A stretch of 64,000 nt of DNA from the NCBI RefSeq assembly GCF_016859125.1, contig NZ_CP069338.1, positions 9,737,501 to 9,801,500 on the forward strand. The letters run 5' to 3'. Made by a program: the position numbers and the translations under genes. Below, one piece after another: positions 19,632-34,139 of this stretch; the first letter of the stretch is position 1; each line of letters begins with the position of its first letter. Source of the DNA: Archangium violaceum. GTDB taxonomy: Bacteria; Myxococcota; Myxococcia; Myxococcales; Myxococcaceae. The notes under the pieces are model-generated. The model saw nothing but the letters and a program-made list of their open reading frames with translations. It was not told where the DNA came from and did not search any database.

Positions 19632-22600
19632 GTGAATCAACAGCGGATGAATGGCGCCCGGTTTCTGTGGGCGATTGGATTTCTGGCATGGATGGTGGGC
19701 TGCACCGACTCGCCCCCGCCCCAGGTGGTGGGCCAGATGGTGTTCCTGACGCAGCCCGAACAGGCCGTGGCGGGCGCGCCCCTGGCCGTGGTGGAGGTGG
19801 CGGTACGGGACACCGGGGGCCGCCCTCTCACCGAGGTCTCGGAAGTCACTCTGACCCTGGCGGAAGGCCCTGAGGGAGCCACGCTAGAAGGCCCCGTCAC
19901 CGCGCGCGCCGTCAACGGTGTCGCCAGCTTCTCCGAGGTGGTGCTGAAGAAGGCCGGCAGTGGCTACGCGCTACGGGCCTCCACACCGGGATTGGACGCG
20001 GTCACCAGCGCCGCCTTCACCGTGAAGGCGGCTGCCGCGGCCACGCTGTCCTTCACGCAGCAACCGGTGGATGGCGTGGCGGGCGTGCCCCTCACCACCG
20101 AGGTGGCCCTCTACGACACCTTCGGCAACCCCGCCACGGAGGACACCTCGGAGGTGGTGCTGTCCCTCGCGGAGGGTCCCAAGGGCGCCACGTTGGAAGG
20201 CTCCCTCTCCTCTCGCGCCGCCCATGGCACGGCGCGCTTCTCCGAGGTGGTGCTGAAGAGGATGGGCACCGGCTATGCGCTGCGGGCCTCGCTCCCGGGA
20301 CAGGGAGGGGCCACCAGCGCCACCTTCACCGTGAAGGCGGCCGCCACGGCCACGCTGGCCTTCGCGCAGCAGCCGGTGGACGGCATGGCGGGCACGCCCT
20401 TCTCCGTCCAGGTGGCGCTGTCGGATGCCTTTGGCAACCCCGCCACGGAGGACACCTCGTCCGTGGCACTGGCGCTGGAGGGAGGCGGCACGCTGGCCAC
20501 GGCGGCGCCCGTCAGCGGTGTTGCCACCTTCACCGACGTCCGCGTGTCCGCGCCGGGTCACCACGTCCTGGAGGCCCGCCTGGGCGCGCTGCCCGTGGCC
20601 ACCAGCGCCCGCTTCGAGATGCGAGCGCCCCAGCCCCCCGCCTTCGCCGAGGCGCACCAGGACGCAGCCTTCGTCCAGCCCGGGGGCACCGTCCGCTTCC
20701 ACGTCTCGGCCCATGACCCGCAGGGCGCGGCGTTGGGCTTCGCGTGGCTGGCGGCCGTCGGCACGCTGGGGACGGCGGAGGACACCGCGACGACGAGCAC
20801 CGTCGTCTGGACGGCACCCGCGTGCCTGCCGGCGGGCACGGCGTCGCCCATCGTCGTCACCGCCACCGTCCGCAACGAATTGGACCAGGAGGCCGTCACC
20901 CGCTTCCAGGTGGGGGGCCTGCCGGACTGCCCCCGGTGGCTGCCGACCGCCAGCATGGCCTCGAGGCGCCAGGCGCACACGGCGACGTTGCTGCCTTCCG
21001 GCGAGGTGCTGGTGGCGGGCGGCTCCACCACCTCCGAGTGGCTGGCCTCGGCGGAGCTGTACGACCCGCGGACGGGCACGTGGACGAGCACCGGCAGCCT
21101 GGCCGAGCCACGGGGCAAACACACCGCGACACTGCTGCCCTCCGGCAAGGTGCTGGTGGTGGGCGGGGAGAACGACTCCGGCGCCCTGGCCACGGCGGAG
21201 GTGTACGACCCGGAGACGGGTACCTGGACGCGCACCGGCAGCCTGGCCCTGGCGCGCTACGACCACGCGACGACGCTGCTGGCCTCGGGACAGGTGCTGG
21301 TGACGGGCGGCTGGACCGGCGTCGGCTTCCTGGACACGGTGGAGGTGTACTCCCCGCACACGGGAACGTGGTCCACCGAAACCGGCAGGATGGTCTCGGC
21401 CCGCAGGTGGCACTCGGCCACGCTGCTTCCCTCCGGCAAGGTGCTGGTGACGGGCGGGTACACGGCCCGCCATACCTTCCTGGCCACGGCGGAGGTGTAC
21501 GACCCGTGGACGCACACCTGGACGAGCACCGGCAGCATGGCCTCGGCCCGCAGGTGGCACTCGGCCACGCTGCTTCCCTCCGGCAGCGTGCTGGTGGCGG
21601 GCGGCAACAACGGCTCCGCCTCGCTGGCCACGGCGGAGCTGTATGACCCGCGGACGGGCACCTGGGCGAGCACCGCCAGCCTGGGCTCGGCGCGCGAGAT
21701 GCACGCGGTGGAGCAACTGCCCTCGGGCACGCTGCTGGTGATGGGCGGGTACAGCAGCGAGGGCTTCCTGGCCACGGCGGAGGTGTACGACCCGCGCACG
21801 GGCACATGGACGCGCACCGGAGACATGGCCACGGCCCGCGGTGGGCACACGGCGACGCTGCTGTCCTCGGGCCGGGTGCTGGTGGCGGGTGGACAGCGCG
21901 CGGACGACCTGCCCGGGGCGGAGCTGTACGACCCGGGAGCGCGCACCTGGACGAGCGCCGGCGGCATGGCCTCGAAGCGGGAGGGACACACCGCGACGCT
22001 GCTGCCCTCGGGCAGGCTGCTGGTGGCGGGTGGCTTCAACGACTCCACCTGGCTGGCCACGGCGGAGCTGTACGATCCGGGCACGAACACCTGGACGAGC
22101 ACCGGCGACATGACGATGCCCCGCAGCGGGCACACGGCGACGCTGTTGCCCTCGGGCAAGGTGCTGGTGGCGGGCGGGCTGAACGGCTCCGGCTACCTCG
22201 TCACGGCGGAGCTGTACGACCCGGAGACGGACACCTGGACGAGCACCGGCGACATGACGATGCCCCGCAGATGGCACACGGCGACGCTGCTGCCCTCGGG
22301 GCAGGTGTTGGTGACGGGCGGGGAGCGCAACTACGGCCCCACGGCGTTCGCCGAGCTGTACGACCCGCGGACGGGCACCTGGACCGACACCGCCAGCATG
22401 GCCGCGACGCGGAGCGGGCACACGGCGACGTTGCTGCCCTCGGGCAAGGTGCTGGTGACGGGCGGTTCGGGCAGATCCTCCTACGAAGCCACGGCGCAGC
22501 TGTACGATCCGCGGACGGGCACCTGGACGAGCGCCGGCAGCATGGCCTCGGCGCGTGAAAGGCACACGGCGACGCTGCTGCCCTCGGGCAAGGTGCTGGT

Positions 22601-22949
22601 GGCGGGTGGCTACAACAGCTCCGCCTCGCTGACCACGACGGAGCTGTACGATCCGGGGACGAACACCTGGACGAGCACCGGCGGGATGAGCTCGACGCGG
22701 AGCGACCATACGGCGACGCCGCTGCCCTCGGGCCAGGTGCTGGTGACGGGCGGCGACAGCCTCTCCACCTCCGCGCCCACGGCGGAGCTCTACGACCCGG
22801 GGACGGGCACCTGGGCGCGCACCAGCGGCCCGACGGCGGCGCAGGTCTGGCACACGGCGACGCTGCTGCCCTCGGGTCGTGTGCTGCTGACGGGGGGACA
22901 CAGCGCCTCCTCGGGCTTCCTGGCCACGGTGGAGCTGTACACGCCCTGA
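19632..22949 (+). CDS. Kelch-repeat surface lipoprotein with bacterial Ig-like repeats
   Basis: 1105 residues. The signal peptide ends at a lipobox (MVGC, Cys24), so it is an outer-surface lipoprotein candidate. Three Ig/filamin-like repeats of about 100 residues (35-325) share the pattern TFGNPATEDTSxVxLxL ... FTVKAAA. A fourth beta domain (about 330-435) leads into 14 kelch-type repeats of 47-49 residues (HTATLLPSGKVLVAGG ... AELYDPxTGTWTSTG). These would form two beta-propellers. Such proteins are abundant in myxobacteria and have no assigned function. The GTG start is set by a strong AGGAGGGGG upstream. Confidence 0.85.
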   Translation: MNQQRMNGARFLWAIGFLAWMVGCTDSPPPQVVGQMVFLTQPEQAVAGAPLAVVEVAVRDTGGRPLTEVSEVTLTLAEGPEGATLEGPVTARAVNGVASFSEVVLKKAGSGYALRASTPGLDAVTSAAFTVKAAAAATLSFTQQPVDGVAGVPLTTEVALYDTFGNPATEDTSEVVLSLAEGPKGATLEGSLSSRAAHGTARFSEVVLKRMGTGYALRASLPGQGGATSATFTVKAAATATLAFAQQPVDGMAGTPFSVQVALSDAFGNPATEDTSSVALALEGGGTLATAAPVSGVATFTDVRVSAPGHHVLEARLGALPVATSARFEMRAPQPPAFAEAHQDAAFVQPGGTVRFHVSAHDPQGAALGFAWLAAVGTLGTAEDTATTSTVVWTAPACLPAGTASPIVVTATVRNELDQEAVTRFQVGGLPDCPRWLPTASMASRRQAHTATLLPSGEVLVAGGSTTSEWLASAELYDPRTGTWTSTGSLAEPRGKHTATLLPSGKVLVVGGENDSGALATAEVYDPETGTWTRTGSLALARYDHATTLLASGQVLVTGGWTGVGFLDTVEVYSPHTGTWSTETGRMVSARRWHSATLLPSGKVLVTGGYTARHTFLATAEVYDPWTHTWTSTGSMASARRWHSATLLPSGSVLVAGGNNGSASLATAELYDPRTGTWASTASLGSAREMHAVEQLPSGTLLVMGGYSSEGFLATAEVYDPRTGTWTRTGDMATARGGHTATLLSSGRVLVAGGQRADDLPGAELYDPGARTWTSAGGMASKREGHTATLLPSGRLLVAGGFNDSTWLATAELYDPGTNTWTSTGDMTMPRSGHTATLLPSGKVLVAGGLNGSGYLVTAELYDPETDTWTSTGDMTMPRRWHTATLLPSGQVLVTGGERNYGPTAFAELYDPRTGTWTDTASMAATRSGHTATLLPSGKVLVTGGSGRSSYEATAQLYDPRTGTWTSAGSMASARERHTATLLPSGKVLVAGGYNSSASLTTTELYDPGTNTWTSTGGMSSTRSDHTATPLPSGQVLVTGGDSLSTSAPTAELYDPGTGTWARTSGPTAAQVWHTATLLPSGRVLLTGGHSASSGFLATVELYTP
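20951..22946 (+). repeat. 14 tandem coding repeats of about 141-147 bp (kelch units)
   Basis: Units of 141-147 bp encode the kelch motif. Some neighbours are near-identical at DNA level: the boundary blocks around 21391-21440 and 21535-21585 share a long GCCCGCAGGTGGCACTCGGC stretch, and the 22107- and 22250-region units share GACATGACGATGCCCCGCAG. Patches of identity within diverged units indicate recent unit duplication or gene conversion. Confidence 0.75.
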
Positions 22950-24664: not shown

Positions 24665-24790
24665 GTGATGATGAGGTCCTATCTCATGTTTGAGCTTCCT
24701 CCGCAGCTGGTTCGCTCCCCAGAACGGCCCCCCGCCCCCCGAGCATCAAAAGGAGTAGGCCGACCCTACCGGCGCCGTTACCCTGCCGGC

Positions 24791-25840
24791 ATGATGATCC
24801 GACAGCTCCTGCTCTCTCTCCTCCTCACCGCGGCGGCCTGTGCCCATGGCCAGGGCGCGCCCGCCACCGCCACTCCGACCCCGGACGCCGCGGGTGGCCC
24901 CGCGTACGACGCCGAGCTGACCACGTACGCGTACCCCTATGAGGTGCGCTTCCACCCTGTCGAAGCCCAGGGCCTGCAGCTGCGCATGGCGTACATGGAC
25001 GTGGCCCCCGCGAAGCCCAACGGAACCACGGTGGTGCTGCTGCACGGGAAGAACTTCGCGGGAGGCCACTGGGAGGACACCATCCGCGCGCTCTCCGAGC
25101 GAGGCTTCCGCGTGGTGGTGCCGGACCAGATCGGCTTCGGCAAGTCCAGCAAGCCCGAGCGCTTCCAGTTCACCTTCCAGGCCCTGGCCACCCACACGCG
25201 GGAGCTGCTGGACGCGCTGCACGTGGAGCGCGCGGTGGTGGTGGGCCACTCCATGGGCGGGATGCTCGCCACGCGCCTGGCGTTGATGTTCCCCGAGCGC
25301 TTCTCCGGGCTGGTGCTCGTCAACCCCATTGGCCTGGAGGACTGGAAGCGGGTGGTGCCCTACCGAACCATCGACGCGTGGTACCAGAACGAGCTGAAAT
25401 CCACGCCCGAGAGCGTGCGCGAGTACATGCGCGTGAGCTACTTCGGCGGCCAGTGGAAGCCGGAGTACGACAAGCTGGTGCGGATGCAGGCCGGCTGGCT
25501 GCGCGGCCCGGATCGCGAGCGCATCGCGTGGGTCTCCTCGCTGGCCTACGACATGATCTTCACCCAGCCCGTCGTGCATGAGTTCCCCGACGTGCGCGTG
25601 CCCACGCTGCTCATCATCGGCCAGAGGGATCGCACCGCGCTCGGCCGGCCCTGGGCGCCCGAGTCGGTGAGGGCGTCGCTCGGTGACTACCCCACGCTCG
25701 GCCGGAAGGCGGCGGCGGCGATTCCGGGCGCCCGCCTGGTGGAGCTCCCCGGCGTCGGCCACGTCCCCCAGGTGGAGGACTTCGAGCGCTACCTGGAGGC
25801 GCTGCTGCAGTTCCTCCCGGTGCGGCCCGAGGCCGGCTGA
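24791..25840 (+). CDS. Alpha/beta-hydrolase lipoprotein
   Basis: 349 residues. The signal peptide ends in lipobox TAAAC (Cys19), suggesting an envelope-anchored enzyme. The hydrolase fold shows [14 protein letters not shown] (oxyanion loop), the nucleophile elbow [10 protein letters not shown], a catalytic Asp in IIGQRDRTA and the His in GVGHVPQ. Its sequence is closest in style to hydrolases annotated as epoxide hydrolases, haloalkane dehalogenases or lactone esterases. The substrate is unknown. It is divergent from the glycosyltransferase, with a 126-bp shared upstream region. Confidence 0.85.
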
Positions 25841-25935
25841 GCGGCCCTTCGGCTATGGGAAGCCCCAACACATGCCGGAGCGGGTGCGGATGTGTTAGGG
25901 AAGGGACGGCGTTCTATCCACCATCGGAGAGTGAC

Positions 25936-26397
25936 ATGGCTCATTTCGACGAGACCGCCGTTGCGCAACGCTACGGGCGATTGCCCAAATCCGACGACGA
26001 CGCGGTGCAGTACCTCAAGGCGCTCAAGGTCATCATCAGCGCCGACGGGGAGGCCCATGAGGCCGAGCTGAAGGCGCTCCGCAAGGGGCTCGAGAAGCTG
26101 GGGCTCACGCCGGACCTCGCCAAGGAGGTCGAGTCCTTCGACGGCCACGGCGCCAATCTCGAATCCGTCCTGCCGAAGATGAAGCCCGGCGGCCTGCGCG
26201 CGCGGATGCTCGTGCGCGACGCCATCGAGCTGTCCCGCGCGGATGGAAAGTACGCCCAGGAGGAGAAGGACTCCGTCGCACGGGCCGCCCAACTCCTCGG
26301 GGTGAACGAGACGACGGTGAAGTCCATCGAGTCGCTCGTCGAGCTCGAGCACGCCGTGAAGCATCTGCGCAAGGCGCTGTTCCCGAAGAAGAAGTAA
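25936..26397 (+). CDS. TerB-like acidic helical protein
   Basis: 153 residues, all helical. Two acidic turns typical of TerB folds are present (SADGEAHEAELKAL near 36, SRADGKYAQEEKDSV near 97) and the C-terminus is basic. The start is the ATG nine nt after GGAGAG. It resembles the C-terminal domain of the first gene in the window. TerB proteins are linked to tellurite/stress response systems but their biochemical role is unclear. It is followed by a strong terminator hairpin, so it is probably monocistronic. Confidence 0.75.
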   Translation: MAHFDETAVAQRYGRLPKSDDDAVQYLKALKVIISADGEAHEAELKALRKGLEKLGLTPDLAKEVESFDGHGANLESVLPKMKPGGLRARMLVRDAIELSRADGKYAQEEKDSVARAAQLLGVNETTVKSIESLVELEHAVKHLRKALFPKKK

Positions 26398-26413
26398 TGC
26401 CGTGAGAGGTCAT

Positions 26414-26446
26414 GAGGGAAGGAGAGGTCTCCCCTCTCCTTCCCTC
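26414..26446 (+). terminator. Perfect 14-bp hairpin after the TerB gene
   Basis: The arms GAGGGAAGGAGAGG (26414-26427) and CCTCTCCTTCCCTC (26433-26446) are exactly complementary around a 5-nt loop. It starts 17 nt after the TerB stop and ends 8 nt before the next start codon. A weak T/C tail follows. It probably terminates the TerB transcript, but it would also mask the ribosome site of the next gene if transcription read through. Confidence 0.6.
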
Positions 26447-26454
26447 CTCCCGCC

Positions 26455-28401
26455 ATGTACCGCCTGCGCCTGACCTCCAACCAACTGGCCCTGTTCAGCT
26501 CCGTCACCCGGAGCGATGCGCTCAAACGCGAGATGATCTCCGCGACGACGAAGCTCCCACCGGGGACCGTCGTGCGGCTCGGAGAGCGGACCCTGCGGCT
26601 GGGCGCCCCCCTGGGCAGCGGCCTGGTCGGAACGGTCTCCGAGGCCCGCTGCGCCGACACCGGGGAGCGCTTCGCCCTGAAGCGGGCCCGCGCGGCCATC
26701 CGCACCTTCCAGGAGTTCTTCCGGCTGGAGGCCGCCGCCACCGAGGCGCTGTCCGGCCTCACCGCACTGCGCCCCGCCCGCATCATCGAGCGCACCAGCC
26801 ACGCCCTGCTCAAGGAGTTGCTGCACGGGTCCACCCTGCAGATGCTCATCCTCCAGGGCGCCCTTGGCCAGGAGCAGCGCGACTCCTTCGTCGAGGTGCT
26901 GCGGCAGGTGGCCGACATCCACACGCGCCTGGGCTTCCTGGTCGATCTCTCGCCCAAGAACGTCTGCTGGCAGGACGGGTGGGTGCTGGTCGACGCCGGC
27001 CCCAAGACCCACACCACCGACTACGTCACCCTCCTGGCGGAGCCGGGCTGGGAGCAGTACGTGCGGTATTTCGAGCGCAAGGGAAGCCTCGCCCGGGGCG
27101 GCTCCGCGCCCTCCGTGCTCGTCCGCCCCGTATCGGACGCGGGCATCGCCAACGCCCGCTCCTTCGCCTTCGTCCGGGACTGGTGGATGTGGATTCCCTA
27201 TGATCCCCACGTCGAGCCCGGCCGGTTCTTCGTCACGATCGACGAGACACAGCAGGAGGACGAAGCGGCCTTCCGCGTCGAGCTCGACCGGGGCGCCGAG
27301 CTGGTGCCCGTGCCGGGCGTGGAGGCACGGCTGGCCGAGAGCGAGCTCGTCCGGGCCTGTGCGCTCGAGGCCTGGAAGCGCCAGCACCCGCACCTTCCCG
27401 CCCTCGCGCAGGGGGAGCCCCGGCCGCTGCCGTTCACGACGAGCCGGGAGCCGCTCAGCCTCGCGGCGCTGGCCACCGAGACGGAGCCCTGGGGACTGGC
27501 CAAGGCGCTCAAGCGGGCCTTCCCGGCGCGGGAGGAGCTCCAGGTGCCGGACCTGCCCGTCCAACCCTACCCCCACTGGACCGAGCTCGGGCGCGCGGGC
27601 AGTCCCCACCGCCCCACCGACATCCTGTGCCACGAGCCCTTGAGGACGTCCCGGGTGGCGCTCGATACGCTCCTGAGCCGCCACCGGCACTTCACGGCGA
27701 CCCCGCCCCTGACCCGCACGGATGGCCCGTTCTGCGAGTTGCTGTGCATCCCCTCGGGGGATTGCCGGCGGGCCGTGCTCTTCCTTCCCGGCTTCCGGGC
27801 CTCCGTCGAGGCGGAGGCGGCACTCGTCTCGGCGCTGCTCGCCAGGGGGCTCGATGGGCTGTTCGTCCTGACCCACATGGGAGTGCGCAACAGCAGCGGG
27901 CAGGCCCTGGTGACCGCGGGCCGCTGGGAGACGGTCCTGCTCTGGGATGTCATCGACTACGTCACCGAGTGCCTGGGTGCCAGCGAGGTCGTCCTCGTCT
28001 CGGCGTCCCACGGGGCGATCGCCGCCGTGCTCGTGGCCGACCTGCACCCGCGCGTCACGGCCCTTACCCTGGACTCGTGTGTCCGGCGCCCGCTGGATCT
28101 CGTCGCGCATCTGGCCCAGGCCCGGGGCGAGTCGCCCGGAACCGCCATCCAATCGCTGGTGGAGCACCACATCCCCCAGCCCTTCCAGCTCCGGGAGCCC
28201 ACGCGCAGCCACCTACGCGTGCTGTCGATGTACTCGCGCCAGGACCGGCTCGTCGCCGCATGCGGAGCCATGCCCGTGGGAACCCTGACCCTCTACGAGG
28301 GTGGGCATGCCGCCACCATGCGCCACGACAGCTCCGAGAAGGGAGTGCCCGAGGTCTGTGTCGACGCCCTCCATGCGTTCCTCGGAGAGACCTCCTCCTG
28401 A
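26455..28401 (+). CDS. Kinase-like / alpha-beta-hydrolase fusion protein
   Basis: 648 residues. The first 200 residues read as a degraded protein-kinase fold: a glycine-loop-like LGSGLVGTVSEARC (about 52), FALKRAR with the VAIK-type Lys (about 73) and a catalytic-loop-like LVDLSPKNVCW (about 161; Asp and Asn kept). DAG stands in place of DFG. A middle segment (about 200-390) is unassigned. The C-terminal 230 residues are an alpha/beta hydrolase: VLFLPGFRA, the elbow SASHGAIAAV (Ser about 517), an Asp in SRQDRL and a His in GGHAAT. The combination is not one I know. Both active sites look largely preserved; the substrates are unknown. Confidence 0.7.
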   Translation: MYRLRLTSNQLALFSSVTRSDALKREMISATTKLPPGTVVRLGERTLRLGAPLGSGLVGTVSEARCADTGERFALKRARAAIRTFQEFFRLEAAATEALSGLTALRPARIIERTSHALLKELLHGSTLQMLILQGALGQEQRDSFVEVLRQVADIHTRLGFLVDLSPKNVCWQDGWVLVDAGPKTHTTDYVTLLAEPGWEQYVRYFERKGSLARGGSAPSVLVRPVSDAGIANARSFAFVRDWWMWIPYDPHVEPGRFFVTIDETQQEDEAAFRVELDRGAELVPVPGVEARLAESELVRACALEAWKRQHPHLPALAQGEPRPLPFTTSREPLSLAALATETEPWGLAKALKRAFPAREELQVPDLPVQPYPHWTELGRAGSPHRPTDILCHEPLRTSRVALDTLLSRHRHFTATPPLTRTDGPFCELLCIPSGDCRRAVLFLPGFRASVEAEAALVSALLARGLDGLFVLTHMGVRNSSGQALVTAGRWETVLLWDVIDYVTECLGASEVVLVSASHGAIAAVLVADLHPRVTALTLDSCVRRPLDLVAHLAQARGESPGTAIQSLVEHHIPQPFQLREPTRSHLRVLSMYSRQDRLVAACGAMPVGTLTLYEGGHAATMRHDSSEKGVPEVCVDALHAFLGETSS

Positions 28402-28455
28402 GGGCCGTGTGAGGACGCGGAAGTCGGTGGGAGCAACCGAGCGGCTCGACCTCGG

Positions 28456-29899: not shown

Positions 29900-30167
29900 C
29901 AGGGCTCCCCTTTGGAGTGGAAGGACAGCCTATTCATGATCGCCACGGGGACGTCTGCGATTGCCGCCTCGAGTGGGTCCTCTTCCTCGGAGTGAAGTGC
30001 CTCACTGGATTCATACATCGCGGCTGGAAGATTGGTGCATATCAGGCCACCCACGCCCCGGTTGTCCTACCTTCCAGGTGATTCAGTCAGATGCGGATTT
30101 GGTAAGTTGTCCATCGCACACGCGAGCGCGTGGTTCGAGCTCGAGCCTCAGGGGGAAGGCGCACGGC

Positions 30168-33100
30168 ATGTACAGCTCCAGCGACGACATGGCTCCATCC
30201 AGCAGCGCACCTGGAGTTCTTCCGCGAGGGGCGATCGTCGGTGGCCGCTTCGGCATCGAGACCCTGGCGGGGCGTGGCGGCATGGGCTCCATCTATCGCG
30301 CCAGGGACAGCGAGACGGGCCAGCCCGTTGCCCTCAAGCTGCTGCATGGGGCCACGATTCCGGAGGCGGTGCACCGCTTCCATCGCGAGGGCACGTTGCT
30401 CTCGGAGCTGCGCCACCCCGGCATCGTCTCCTACGTCGCACATGGCACCACCGAGCGCGACCAGCCCTACCTGGTCATGGAGTGGCTCGAGGGTGAGGAC
30501 CTGGCGCAGCGCCTGCGGCGGAGGCCACTGAGCCTGTCCGAGTCCTTGTCGCTGCTGCGCCGGGCCGCCGAGGCACTGGCCGAGGCCCATCGCCAGGGCA
30601 TCGTCCACCGCGACATCAAACCCGCCAACCTGTTCCTGAGAGGCGGCCATCCCGAGGACGTGGTGGTGCTGGACTTCGGCCTGGCCCGTCTCACCGAGCC
30701 CGCCGTGGTGACCGTGACGGGGAGCAACACCGTCGTGGGCTCCCCGGGCTACATGTCGCCGGAGCAGGCCTCCAGCCAGTCGGAGATCCTCCCCTCCGCG
30801 GACATCTTCTCGCTGGGCTGTGTGCTGTATGAGTGCCTCACGGGGAAGCCGCCCTTCGCGGCGCCCCACTTCGCCGCCGCGTTGGCCAAGATCCTGTACG
30901 CCGATCCGGCCCCGCTGCACGCGCTCCGTCCTCACCTGCCCGCCGGGCTGCAGCTGCTGGTGGACCGGATGTTGATCAAGGACCCGAAGCGGCGGCTGCC
31001 GGATGCGACCTCCCTGTTGCAGGCACTCGCGGCCCTGGAGTCCGCGCCCGAGGTGCCGCTGCCCGGCGCCAGGACGGACCTGCTCCTCCACCGGATGGAA
31101 GGGGGCGAGCAGAAGCTGGTCAGCGTCCTGCTGGTGTCCCTCCTGGGCGTGACCCAGGAGGAGACCGTGAACTGGGAGCAGGGCCTCGCGCTGCGTGACT
31201 CGCTGCGCACGGAGTTCTTCCCCCATGGGGCGCAGGTGGAGCTGCTGGCGGACGGCTCACTGGTCGCCACGCTGGTGCTGGAGCACGGCACCGCCACGGA
31301 TCAGGCGGTGCTGGCGGCGCGCTTCGCGCTCACCTTCAAGGAGCGCTGGCCGGAAGCCGCGGTGGTGCTGGTCACGGGTCTGAGCATCCTCGACGAGCGC
31401 CTGCCGGTGGGCGAGTCCATGGACAGGGCGGGCCGGTTGCTGCGCCGGGCCGAGCGGATGCCTTCGACCTCGTCCGTGGTGCTGGACGATGTCACGGCCG
31501 GGCTGCTCGGGCCCGGCTTCCAGCTCACCCGCTCGGAGTCGGGAACCTTCCTGCTGGAAGGCGAGCAGCTGGGTGCCGACGCCTCCCGTCCCCTGCTGGG
31601 CAAGCCGACCCCCTGCGTGGGCCGCGAGCACGAGCTGGCCCTGCTCGACTTCACCTTCAACGCCTGCATCGAGACGCCTGCCGCGCGGGCGCTCCTGGTG
31701 ACGGCCGCGGCGGGAGTGGGCAAGTCCCGGTTACGCCACGAGTTCCTGCGCCGCATCGAGCGGAAGGAGCAGCGATTCCTGCTGTTGCAGGGACGCGGAG
31801 AGCCGATGCACGCGGGAGCCTCGTACGGTTTGCTGGGCCAGGCGCTGCGGCAGCTGTGTGACATCGCGGAGGGAGGGAATCTGGAGGCGCGCCGCGTTCG
31901 GCTGTACCGGCGCGTGGCCCTGCATCTGCCCGATGAGCGGGCTCAGGAGGCCGTGGAGTTCCTGGGCGAGCTGTGCGCCATCCCCTTCCCCGAGGAACAC
32001 AGTCCCCGCTTGAAAGCGGCACGGAGCGACCCCCGGCTGATGAGCTCGCGGGTGGGTCAGGCGCTGGTGACCTTCCTCGAGGCCGAGTGCGCCCACCAAC
32101 CGGTGCTGCTGGTGCTGGAGGATCTGCACTGGAGCGATGCGCTGACCCTCAAGCTGGTGGACGAGGTGTTGCGGAAGCTGGCCGAGCAGCCCCTGATGGT
32201 GTTGGCGCTGGCGAGGCCCGAGGTGAAGGAGCTCTTTCCGGGACTCTGGTCCCGGCACCTGCAGGAAGTGTCGCTGCCGGGTCTGGGCCACAAGGCGGGA
32301 GCGCGGCTGGTGAGGGAGGTACTGGGGCCGCAAGTGCCCGAGGCGGTGGTGCGGCGGGCGGTGGAGATGGCCGACGGCAACGCGCTCTTCCTGGAGGAGC
32401 TCATCCGCATGGCGGCGGAGGGCCGAGGGGAGGAGGCGCCGGGGACGGTGCTGGCGGTGCTGCAGGCGCGACTGACTCGCATGGAGCCCGGAGCCCGGCG
32501 GGTGCTCCTGGCGGCGAGCATCTTCGGCCGCACGTTCTGGTCGGGAGGCGTGAAGGGACTGGTGCATCGGGAGCTCGAGGCGGAGCAGGTGGAGGAGTAC
32601 CTGGAGCGACTGGTGGAGCAGGAAGTCATCGAGGCACTGCCCGACAGCCGCTTCCCGGGAGTGGCGGAGTACCGTTTCCGGCATGCGCTGGTGAGGGATG
32701 CGGCCTATGCCCTGGTACCGGACGGCCATCGAGTCGTGGGCCACCAGCTCGCGGGGGTCTGGCTGGAGCAGGTGGGCGAGCATGAGCCGATGGAGCTCGC
32801 CACGCACTACCAGCGCGGACAGCGGCTGGAGCGCGCCGCCCACTTCTACACCCGAGCCGCCGAGCAGCTCTTCGAGCGGCGAGACCTCCAGGGGGCGATG
32901 CGCTGCTTGGAGGCGGCCCTGGCCTGTGGCATGAGCGGTGCGCCACTGACGCGGCTGCGGGCGCTCCAGGCCGTGGTGGCCTTCTGGATGGATGATCTGC
33001 CGATGTCCCTGGCACAGGGCAGTGCCGTGTTGAACGAATTGAAGGTGGGGAGCCGGCTGTGGTGCTGGTTGATGGGCGGACTGCTCGTCGGGAACCTCTA

Positions 33101-34139
33101 TCACGGCCACCTGGAGGAGGTGGGCAGGCTGGGCGAGCTCCTGCGACGAACCACTCCCGAGCCGGAAGCCGTCCTGGCCTACATTCAAGCCGTTCACATG
33201 TTGCAGGACATGCACATCTTCTCGGGGGCACGAGAGAACGCGGAGGCCTCGATCGCGCGGCTCGAGGAGGTAGTCGCTCCCCTCCTGGCCGATGATGTCC
33301 TGGTGCGCAGTCACATCAGACTGACGAAGGGCGTCCTCTTCCACTTCTTCGAAGCCAGGCCGTGGGAAGCCTTCACCCAGCTCGAGCTGGGGATCCGTGA
33401 GCTCCGTGAGAGCGAAATGGAACAGGGCAGGAACACGATACAGATCAACGTCCTCCAAACCCTCTTCGGGGAAACGTTGGCCGCGCTGGGCGACATGGCC
33501 GGCGCCCTGGCACAGCTGCGAGGGGCCCTGGCCGACGCTCGGCGGCTGGAACAGCACATCATGGCCGCCTATGTGCAGGAACGGTTGCTCATGCTGCTCT
33601 CCGGCAGCCCCGAGCCCGTGCACCGCCAGGAGGCTCGGGCCATGATCCTGGAGTACACGGGGAGCCAGGAGGCCAATTCGCTCCGGGAAGGAGTCGGCCA
33701 CGTCATACTCGCGAGGTTGGCGGCGGCCGACGGCGAGCTGGACGAGGCCGAGACCCATGCACGCCAGGCCTGTGAGCTGTTGGCGCCCTTCCGGCTCTAC
33801 CTCGTCGACGCGCGAACGACCCTCGGCACCCTCCTGCTCTCTCGAGCGAAGCTCACGGAGGCCCGGCAGGTGGCGGAGCTCGGTGTCCAGGAGTTGGAAC
33901 GGATGGGAAACAACGGGGTGTACGCCGTGGCCATGCACCTGGCACGGGTGGAAGCCTGCTTCGCGCGGGGAGATGATCCCGCGGGAGACGCGGCGCTCCG
34001 CGAGGCGTTGCGGTGTGTACGTGCTCGCGCCAGCGACATCCCCGACCCCACCGCCCGCGAGCGGTTCCTGCAACAGGTGCCCGAGAACGCCCGGCTCCTG
34101 GAGCTGGCCCGGCAGCGCTGGAACGACGCGGCGGCGTGA
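30168..34139 (+). CDS. Large Ser/Thr protein kinase with cyclase-like, AAA ATPase and TPR-like regions
   Basis: 1323 residues. Active-looking kinase domain (about 28-300): GRGGMGSIY, VALKLLHG, HRDIKPANL, LDFGLAR and a SPGYMSPEQ activation loop. Residues about 305-470 resemble a degenerate class-III cyclase domain (EGGEQKLVSVLLVSLLG ...). An AAA/STAND ATPase follows (Walker A AAAGVGKSR near 515, Walker B VLLVLEDLHW near 645). The last 500 residues are helical, TPR-like. This layout is common in myxobacterial signalling proteins that couple kinase and STAND modules. The start ATG has GGGGGAAGG about 9 nt upstream; longer frames lack a site. Confidence 0.88.
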   Translation: MYSSSDDMAPSSSAPGVLPRGAIVGGRFGIETLAGRGGMGSIYRARDSETGQPVALKLLHGATIPEAVHRFHREGTLLSELRHPGIVSYVAHGTTERDQPYLVMEWLEGEDLAQRLRRRPLSLSESLSLLRRAAEALAEAHRQGIVHRDIKPANLFLRGGHPEDVVVLDFGLARLTEPAVVTVTGSNTVVGSPGYMSPEQASSQSEILPSADIFSLGCVLYECLTGKPPFAAPHFAAALAKILYADPAPLHALRPHLPAGLQLLVDRMLIKDPKRRLPDATSLLQALAALESAPEVPLPGARTDLLLHRMEGGEQKLVSVLLVSLLGVTQEETVNWEQGLALRDSLRTEFFPHGAQVELLADGSLVATLVLEHGTATDQAVLAARFALTFKERWPEAAVVLVTGLSILDERLPVGESMDRAGRLLRRAERMPSTSSVVLDDVTAGLLGPGFQLTRSESGTFLLEGEQLGADASRPLLGKPTPCVGREHELALLDFTFNACIETPAARALLVTAAAGVGKSRLRHEFLRRIERKEQRFLLLQGRGEPMHAGASYGLLGQALRQLCDIAEGGNLEARRVRLYRRVALHLPDERAQEAVEFLGELCAIPFPEEHSPRLKAARSDPRLMSSRVGQALVTFLEAECAHQPVLLVLEDLHWSDALTLKLVDEVLRKLAEQPLMVLALARPEVKELFPGLWSRHLQEVSLPGLGHKAGARLVREVLGPQVPEAVVRRAVEMADGNALFLEELIRMAAEGRGEEAPGTVLAVLQARLTRMEPGARRVLLAASIFGRTFWSGGVKGLVHRELEAEQVEEYLERLVEQEVIEALPDSRFPGVAEYRFRHALVRDAAYALVPDGHRVVGHQLAGVWLEQVGEHEPMELATHYQRGQRLERAAHFYTRAAEQLFERRDLQGAMRCLEAALACGMSGAPLTRLRALQAVVAFWMDDLPMSLAQGSAVLNELKVGSRLWCWLMGGLLVGNLYHGHLEEVGRLGELLRRTTPEPEAVLAYIQAVHMLQDMHIFSGARENAEASIARLEEVVAPLLADDVLVRSHIRLTKGVLFHFFEARPWEAFTQLELGIRELRESEMEQGRNTIQINVLQTLFGETLAALGDMAGALAQLRGALADARRLEQHIMAAYVQERLLMLLSGSPEPVHRQEARAMILEYTGSQEANSLREGVGHVILARLAAADGELDEAETHARQACELLAPFRLYLVDARTTLGTLLLSRAKLTEARQVAELGVQELERMGNNGVYAVAMHLARVEACFARGDDPAGDAALREALRCVRARASDIPDPTARERFLQQVPENARLLELARQRWNDAAA

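Follow-up and report, generated by a model that had tools for sequence, protein, structure and literature searches.

The window analysed here, a stretch of 64,000 nucleotides from a genome of 12.7 Mb assembled as a single contig, contains a gene whose 648-residue product joins an N-terminal kinase-like domain to a C-terminal alpha/beta-hydrolase-like domain. It lies on the + strand at 26455-28401, exactly where a sequence-only reading of this DNA had placed it, and it stands behind a short TerB-like gene, with a perfect inverted repeat between the two (Table 1). The ATG at 26455 is the first usable start, with an in-frame stop 14 codons 5' of it and no ATG, GTG or TTG in the interval, and the GC content at third positions of the gene is 0.93. 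The protein shows no conspicuous membrane-spanning or signal segment, the nucleophile strand of the hydrolase being its most hydrophobic part, and, judging from its sequence, it is most likely soluble and cytosolic, with both domains in one chain.

Table 1. Features of the fusion gene and its surroundings (positions are those of the window)
Feature	Position	Strand	Basis or remark
Conserved TGTGtTAGGGA stretch	25891..25901	+	upstream of the TerB-like gene
TerB-like gene, 153 aa, conserved partner	25936..26397	+	Pfam TerB (PF05099), 42.4 bits, cut-off 24.4
14-bp perfect inverted repeat, 5-nt loop	26414..26446	+	between the two genes, 8 nt 5' of the ATG
Fusion gene, 648 aa, N-terminal kinase-like and C-terminal alpha/beta-hydrolase-like	26455..28401	+	ORF call, G004 orthologue, dN/dS
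Kinase-fold region, residues 31-214 (predicted)	26545..27096	+	31-182 by profile alignment; 183-214 by model only
Glycine-rich loop GSGLVGTV, residues 54-61	26614..26637	+	alignments
K76, VAIK-type lysine (in FALK)	26680..26682	+	invariant in kinase alignment
E92, alpha-C glutamate	26728..26730	+	invariant in kinase alignment
Catalytic loop LVDLSPKN, residues 162-169	26938..26961	+	D164 and N169 kept; H, R and Lys of HRDLKPxN changed
DAG (DFG-type), residues 180-182	26992..27000	+	hhalign places DFG there
Middle segment, residues 215-430	27097..27744	+	model: low-confidence strands 234-285, helix 297-310
Alpha/beta-hydrolase-like domain, residues ~431-648	27745..28398	+	hhalign, MAFFT, Pfam, shuffles
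Nucleophile elbow SASHG, residues 516-520	28000..28014	+	Ser518 at 28006-28008
Asp597, candidate triad acid	28243..28245	+	alignment
His618, candidate triad base	28306..28308	+	one column from the reference His

Only one other carrier of the fusion was found, a genome of the same genus (G004), where the orthologue has the same length, aligns without gaps at 87% amino acid identity and keeps the fusion intact. Comparison of the 64-kb window with the 38.8-kb G004 contig gave a single block of homology, 25918-28402 (87.5%), which comprises the TerB-like gene and the fusion. The right flank of the window, from about 28441, is found on a different G004 contig (94%), while the left flank of the G004 pair has a 94% match in a further genome, G006, where the pair is absent. 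At E ≤ 1e-10 the TerB-like gene occurs in the same two of 96 family genomes as the fusion. According to our analysis the two genes are most likely an accessory two-gene unit, and the places it occupies in the two genomes are unrelated. Like other TerB proteins (PF05099) the partner scores above the Pfam cut-off, but here it is paired with the fusion, and other ter genes are absent among the few neighbours scanned.

The intergenic hairpin has an RNA fold z of -4.6 in the window and of -5.4 for its G004 counterpart, and its 11-bp core has an exact match at this site only, in two of six genomes of the genus. No T-run terminator was found at the hairpin, which, as far as its sequence indicates, may serve as an attenuator of the fusion gene or as a non-canonical terminator for its TerB-like neighbour; the TGTGtTAGGGA stretch is a possible promoter element of the TerB-like gene. 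Among the 25 inverted repeats listed, of 30 in the window, this hairpin is the only perfect, spaced one, and GGAAGGAGAGG, allowing up to one mismatch, occurs at 11 sites in the window compared with about two expected in shuffles, two of these sites being the hairpin arms.

Several other genes of the neighbourhood deserve a mention. Just 5' of the pair, 24719-25840 encodes a separate, ordinary alpha/beta hydrolase (Abhydrolase_1, 100.9 bits) with an apparent lipoprotein-type N-terminus, as read by eye; in G004 the closest match to this gene is on a different contig. A 1392-aa ORF (29961-34139), which follows the fusion on the + strand, has close to its N-terminus a Ser/Thr kinase domain of canonical type (open-frame residues 94-366, profile E 3e-78). 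In the 1105-aa ORF at 19632-22949 a 'TLLPSGKVLVAGG'-like motif recurs many times, by eye as Kelch-type repeats, and the long ORF antisense to it is probably an artefact of GC-rich sequence.

The distribution of the fusion was followed through overlapping samples of family, order and phylum genomes, in which no more than 8 to 12 first-look candidates were scored per genome, so that distant relatives may be missed. Counting the genome of the window itself, full-length matches were obtained in two of 96 family genomes (12 more partial) and two of 145 order genomes (5 more partial), and for residues 176-648 in two of 195 phylum genomes (6 more partial). The phyletic check proposed by the sequence-only reading thus comes down to two genomes of one genus, and the splitting into two genes in relatives, which it had named as a possible refutation, was not observed, the G004 orthologue being a single ORF of the same length. 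No relative of the fusion was found in the genome contigs, viral contigs, plasmids and phages searched. Among 2074 ORFs of at least 150 aa, drawn from 159 loci and the window (overlapping loci repeat the fusion ORF), the kinase profile and the hydrolase profile were matched by 70 each, and the fusion alone matched both; since the G004 orthologue itself did not clear the two profiles together at the cut-off used, this screen misses some cases, and since most loci have flanks of about 1.5 kb and were sampled by similarity, the absence of other two-domain ORFs carries little weight.

No Pfam or NCBIfam family scores above its cut-off on the fusion protein, and neither the kinase-hydrolase architecture nor the gene pair was found in the literature searched; in PMC2877116, which catalogues domains tethered to prokaryotic kinases, the word 'hydrolase' is absent from the main text. 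The protein combines two known superfamilies in an order not found elsewhere in the data and papers searched. The suggestion that no described family has this order is consistent with the Pfam, NCBIfam, plasmid, phage and literature searches, which fall short of proving it.

Kinase resemblance of the N-terminal half was found by several routes. The Pfam Pkinase model (PF00069) matches residues 51-171 with 23.2 bits, below its cut-off of 31.7 (E 5.2e-5 on the first 202 residues), p38 kinase was matched on residues 42-199 by phmmer against PDB sequences (E 4.9e-5), and residues 1-192 had matches at E ≤ 0.001 in 76 of 189 phylum genomes, mostly over residues ~24 to 182. With a profile of 36 myxobacterial kinases, all recruited using the query protein, the fusion scores 53.2 bits and none of 2000 shuffles more than 6.0, and hhalign aligns residues 31-182 with this profile at 98.5% probability (E 2.4e-15). 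Cross-controls, in which each half was compared with the profile of the other, reached 0.1-0.2% probability. In the 38-row alignment of these 36 kinases with the two fusion orthologues, 11 columns are invariant, K76, E92, E121, D164, P167 and N169 among them.

In common with Hanks-type Ser/Thr kinases such as PknA/PknB and YabT, the fusion has the glycine-rich loop, the VAIK lysine, the alpha-C glutamate, the catalytic Asp and the Asn, as well as the Asp and Gly of DFG. Where those kinases have HRDLKPxN and DFG, the fusion has LVDLSPKN and DAG: His and Arg of HRD are replaced with Asp164 and Asn169 kept, the Lys two positions after the catalytic Asp is Ser, and the Phe of DFG is lost. The alignment of DAG 180-182 with DFG comes from hhalign and one short-query alignment, while the other five of six short-query test alignments disagreed; the alternative position D189-Y190, suggested by an untrimmed alignment, was rejected. 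After DAG the activation segment, APE, the alpha-F Asp and alpha-G to alpha-I were not recognisable in the profile alignment or in the model; the profile alignment stops at 182 and the structure matches at ~203-214, and MAFFT placement beyond is unreliable. Taken together, LVDLSPKN, DAG and the lack of a recognisable C-lobe could mean that no phosphotransfer takes place. One kinase-like match, L104 (genome G008; 32% identity over residues 7-182), contains one in-frame TGA, possibly reflecting a broken gene or an assembly error.

For structural comparison residues 1-435 were folded with AF2 using the 36 kinase rows truncated behind the catalytic loop (HRDLKPxN), because in a mixed alignment of kinases and hydrolases, intended for folding the whole protein, MAFFT matched the hydrolases to the kinase half; of the mixed subsets tried, just one (4 kinases and 4 hydrolases) had every checked residue in register. 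A full-length AF2 model from the two orthologues alone, the one model to cover the hydrolase half, had a pLDDT of 32 and was discarded. In the model retained, pLDDT is 74-97 over residues 31-180 and below 50 for most of 209-272 and 315-435. Foldseek gave 760 PDB matches at E ≤ 0.001, the best 50 of which are all kinases, with 6b2q from a study of M. tuberculosis PknA/PknB at the top (E 5.1e-6). VIA returned Z ≥ 8 for 963 of 1000 chains, model residues 33-214 being spanned by at least a fifth of the rows, and the Z scores were 14.9 for HIPK2 (161 residues, 3.1 A, the best), 13.1 for YabT and 12.6 for Rio1. As the model was guided by kinase rows, the fold match shows compatibility and is not independent proof. 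With alignment and model taken together, residues ~31-214 are predicted to be a divergent, shortened kinase fold of the Hanks type. Its short C-lobe also resembles that of Rio1-like minimal kinases, but the fusion carries a hydrolase, and no RIO family was matched in Pfam up to E 10.

For the C-terminal half, Abhydrolase_1 (PF00561) matches residues 440-549 with 18.3 bits, below the cut-off of 25.8 (E 0.002), and against 28 hydrolases hhalign gives a probability of 87.9% (E 3.2e-6) for an alignment that covers the first part of the domain. The profile of these hydrolases, 24 of which were recruited with Pfam PF12146, scores the fusion at 18.6 bits, with at most 12.3 in 2000 shuffles. In MAFFT alignments Ser518 falls on Ser in 35 of 36 hydrolase rows (L091 is the exception) and Asp597 on Asp in all 36. 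For the reference His the 36 rows agree on A619, the column next after His618; in one set of four hydrolases the His match is exact. This offset fits a loop one residue shorter, which would leave His618 as the candidate base, and the triad is probably Ser518-Asp597-His618. Compared with alpha/beta hydrolases of PF00561 and PF12146, whose Ser and Asp are in register here and whose His comes within one column, the fusion differs in its SASHG elbow (the first Gly of GxSxG is Ser), in PG in place of HG near the oxyanion hole, in the sub-cut-off Pfam score and in the joining of the domain to a kinase-like one. Two further matches of this half were judged to be chance: alkaline phosphatases in the PDB (E 0.026 and 0.41 over about 57 residues) and NCBIfam SAV_915 (E 0.014 over 23 residues).

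These results confirm what the sequence-only reading had observed and support in part its interpretation, in which a self-regulated lipase/esterase or a modifying enzyme was suggested as a candidate function. It had left unmentioned the changed H, R and Lys of HRDLKPxN, the loss of a recognisable C-lobe after DAG, the unassigned stretch between the halves and the offset of the His. Its glycine-loop-like segment, VAIK-type Lys, catalytic-loop Asp and Asn, and DAG replacing DFG were all recovered, and the possibility that the N-terminal half has no kinase fold, by which it was to be refuted, did not materialise, as the AF2 model matches kinases in both Foldseek and VIA. Both domain calls are supported, although the kinase part is less complete than the term 'kinase domain' implies; in the claimed Ser-Asp-His, Ser and Asp stand in register, but the reference His lies one column past His618.

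About 215 residues separate the two halves, and neither PDB sequences (for residues 176-435) nor Pfam (for residues 181-435) gave a match to this part of the protein up to E 10.

Between the two orthologues, the only two sequences from which it was calculated, dN/dS of the fusion is 0.204 (bootstrap 0.152-0.274). Along the protein it is 0.175 for residues 35-80, 0.506 for 81-160, 0.061 for 161-222, 0.312 for 223-290, 0.305 for 291-430 and 0.075 for 431-648. The low values from the catalytic loop to past DAG and in the hydrolase-like domain suggest that both active-site regions are being held, and since an equal-length, still-fused orthologue at 87% identity accompanies an overall dN/dS of 0.20, the gene is to be taken as real and selected. 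Synonymous divergence is 0.363 in the fusion, 0.203 in the TerB-like gene, and 0.198 and 0.109 in right-flank genes; the higher value of the fusion fits relocation or separate acquisition, without being decisive.

Residues of the glycine loop, K76, E92, N169 and D180 type have the ATP-Mg binding roles in kinases. We tentatively propose, as the leading reading, that the fusion acts in the cytosol as a serine hydrolase, under the control or with the assistance of a kinase-like domain that binds ATP, and that it belongs to an accessory cassette with a TerB-like gene. The N-terminal domain would bind ATP-Mg through the glycine loop, K76, E92, N169 and D180 and keep the catalytic Asp164, while the predicted alpha/beta serine hydrolase at residues 431-648 would be the effector. 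The kinase-like domain, by binding a nucleotide or by phosphorylation, would then control or assist the hydrolysis step, the target of phosphorylation being the protein itself, the TerB-like partner or the substrate of the hydrolase, and residues 215-430 may couple the two domains. As the second gene of the cassette, the fusion would be expressed behind the conserved hairpin, which may limit read-through. What the data show directly is the fusion, the kinase match, the alignment of Ser and Asp, purifying selection and the gene pair; activity at either predicted site, the coupling and the part played by the hairpin are inferred. A working nucleotide site is favoured because the ATP/Mg residues are conserved and residues 161-222 strongly constrained, and the changed HRD and DFG with the missing C-lobe put a pseudokinase reading close behind.

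That second reading, in which an active hydrolase is positioned or switched by a pseudokinase acting as a nucleotide- or protein-binding scaffold, is in our opinion unlikely, and yet it is the most serious of the alternatives. It would account for LVD in place of HRD, Ser for the HRDLKPxN lysine, DAG for DFG, a C-lobe unrecognisable past 182 and the relaxation of residues 81-160 (dN/dS 0.51), but a pure scaffold sits less easily with the retention of K76, E92, D164, N169 and D180 and with the dN/dS of 0.061 over 161-222.

It would be considerably less probable that the protein is a two-step enzyme, in which a metabolite or drug is phosphorylated by a Rio1/APH-like minimal kinase and also cleaved or released by the hydrolase. 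A kinase fold recognisable to ~214 only, the presence of Rio1 among the VIA matches (Z 12.6) and the patchy, accessory occurrence in two of 195 phylum genomes are in line with it; in sequence, however, the domain matches solely Hanks-type protein kinases, no small-molecule kinase family appears in Pfam up to E 10, and the surroundings of the pair show no conserved biosynthetic cluster.

We regard as more doubtful still an anti-phage or conflict cassette, with the TerB-like gene and the fusion forming a defence or stress system and the hydrolase as its effector. The pair does occur as a two-gene unit at unrelated loci of two related genomes, and the kinase part has weak PADLOC matches to mad6 (E 3.3e-5) and PD-T4-6 (E 2.5e-4), but these span general kinase segments only, no defence gene was seen among the neighbours scanned with Pfam, and the viral contigs, plasmids and phages searched hold no copy.

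That a decaying gene or a misassembly mimics a fusion, as sub-cut-off Pfam scores of both domains and the orphan distribution might suggest, is highly improbable in the face of an intact 648-aa orthologue in another genome (87% identity, dN/dS 0.204, bootstrap 0.152-0.274) and a third-position GC of 0.93.

Returning to a hydrolase controlled or assisted by its kinase-like domain, one may go further and imagine an ATP-gated hydrolase switched in cis by a minimal kinase, within a TerB cassette whose hairpin sets the proportion in which the two proteins are made, the whole being an undescribed stress or conflict module; we put this forward as a speculation that is itself rather improbable.

If the kinase part does control the hydrolase, one protein would hold both a hydrolase and its direct switch, phosphorylation or ATP binding, and it would offer a simple test of how minimal functional kinase folds can be. 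The TerB-like partner would, besides, link a stress domain of which little is understood with a definable enzyme. ATP-controlled hydrolysis, if true, would make the fusion more than a variant of known superfamilies.
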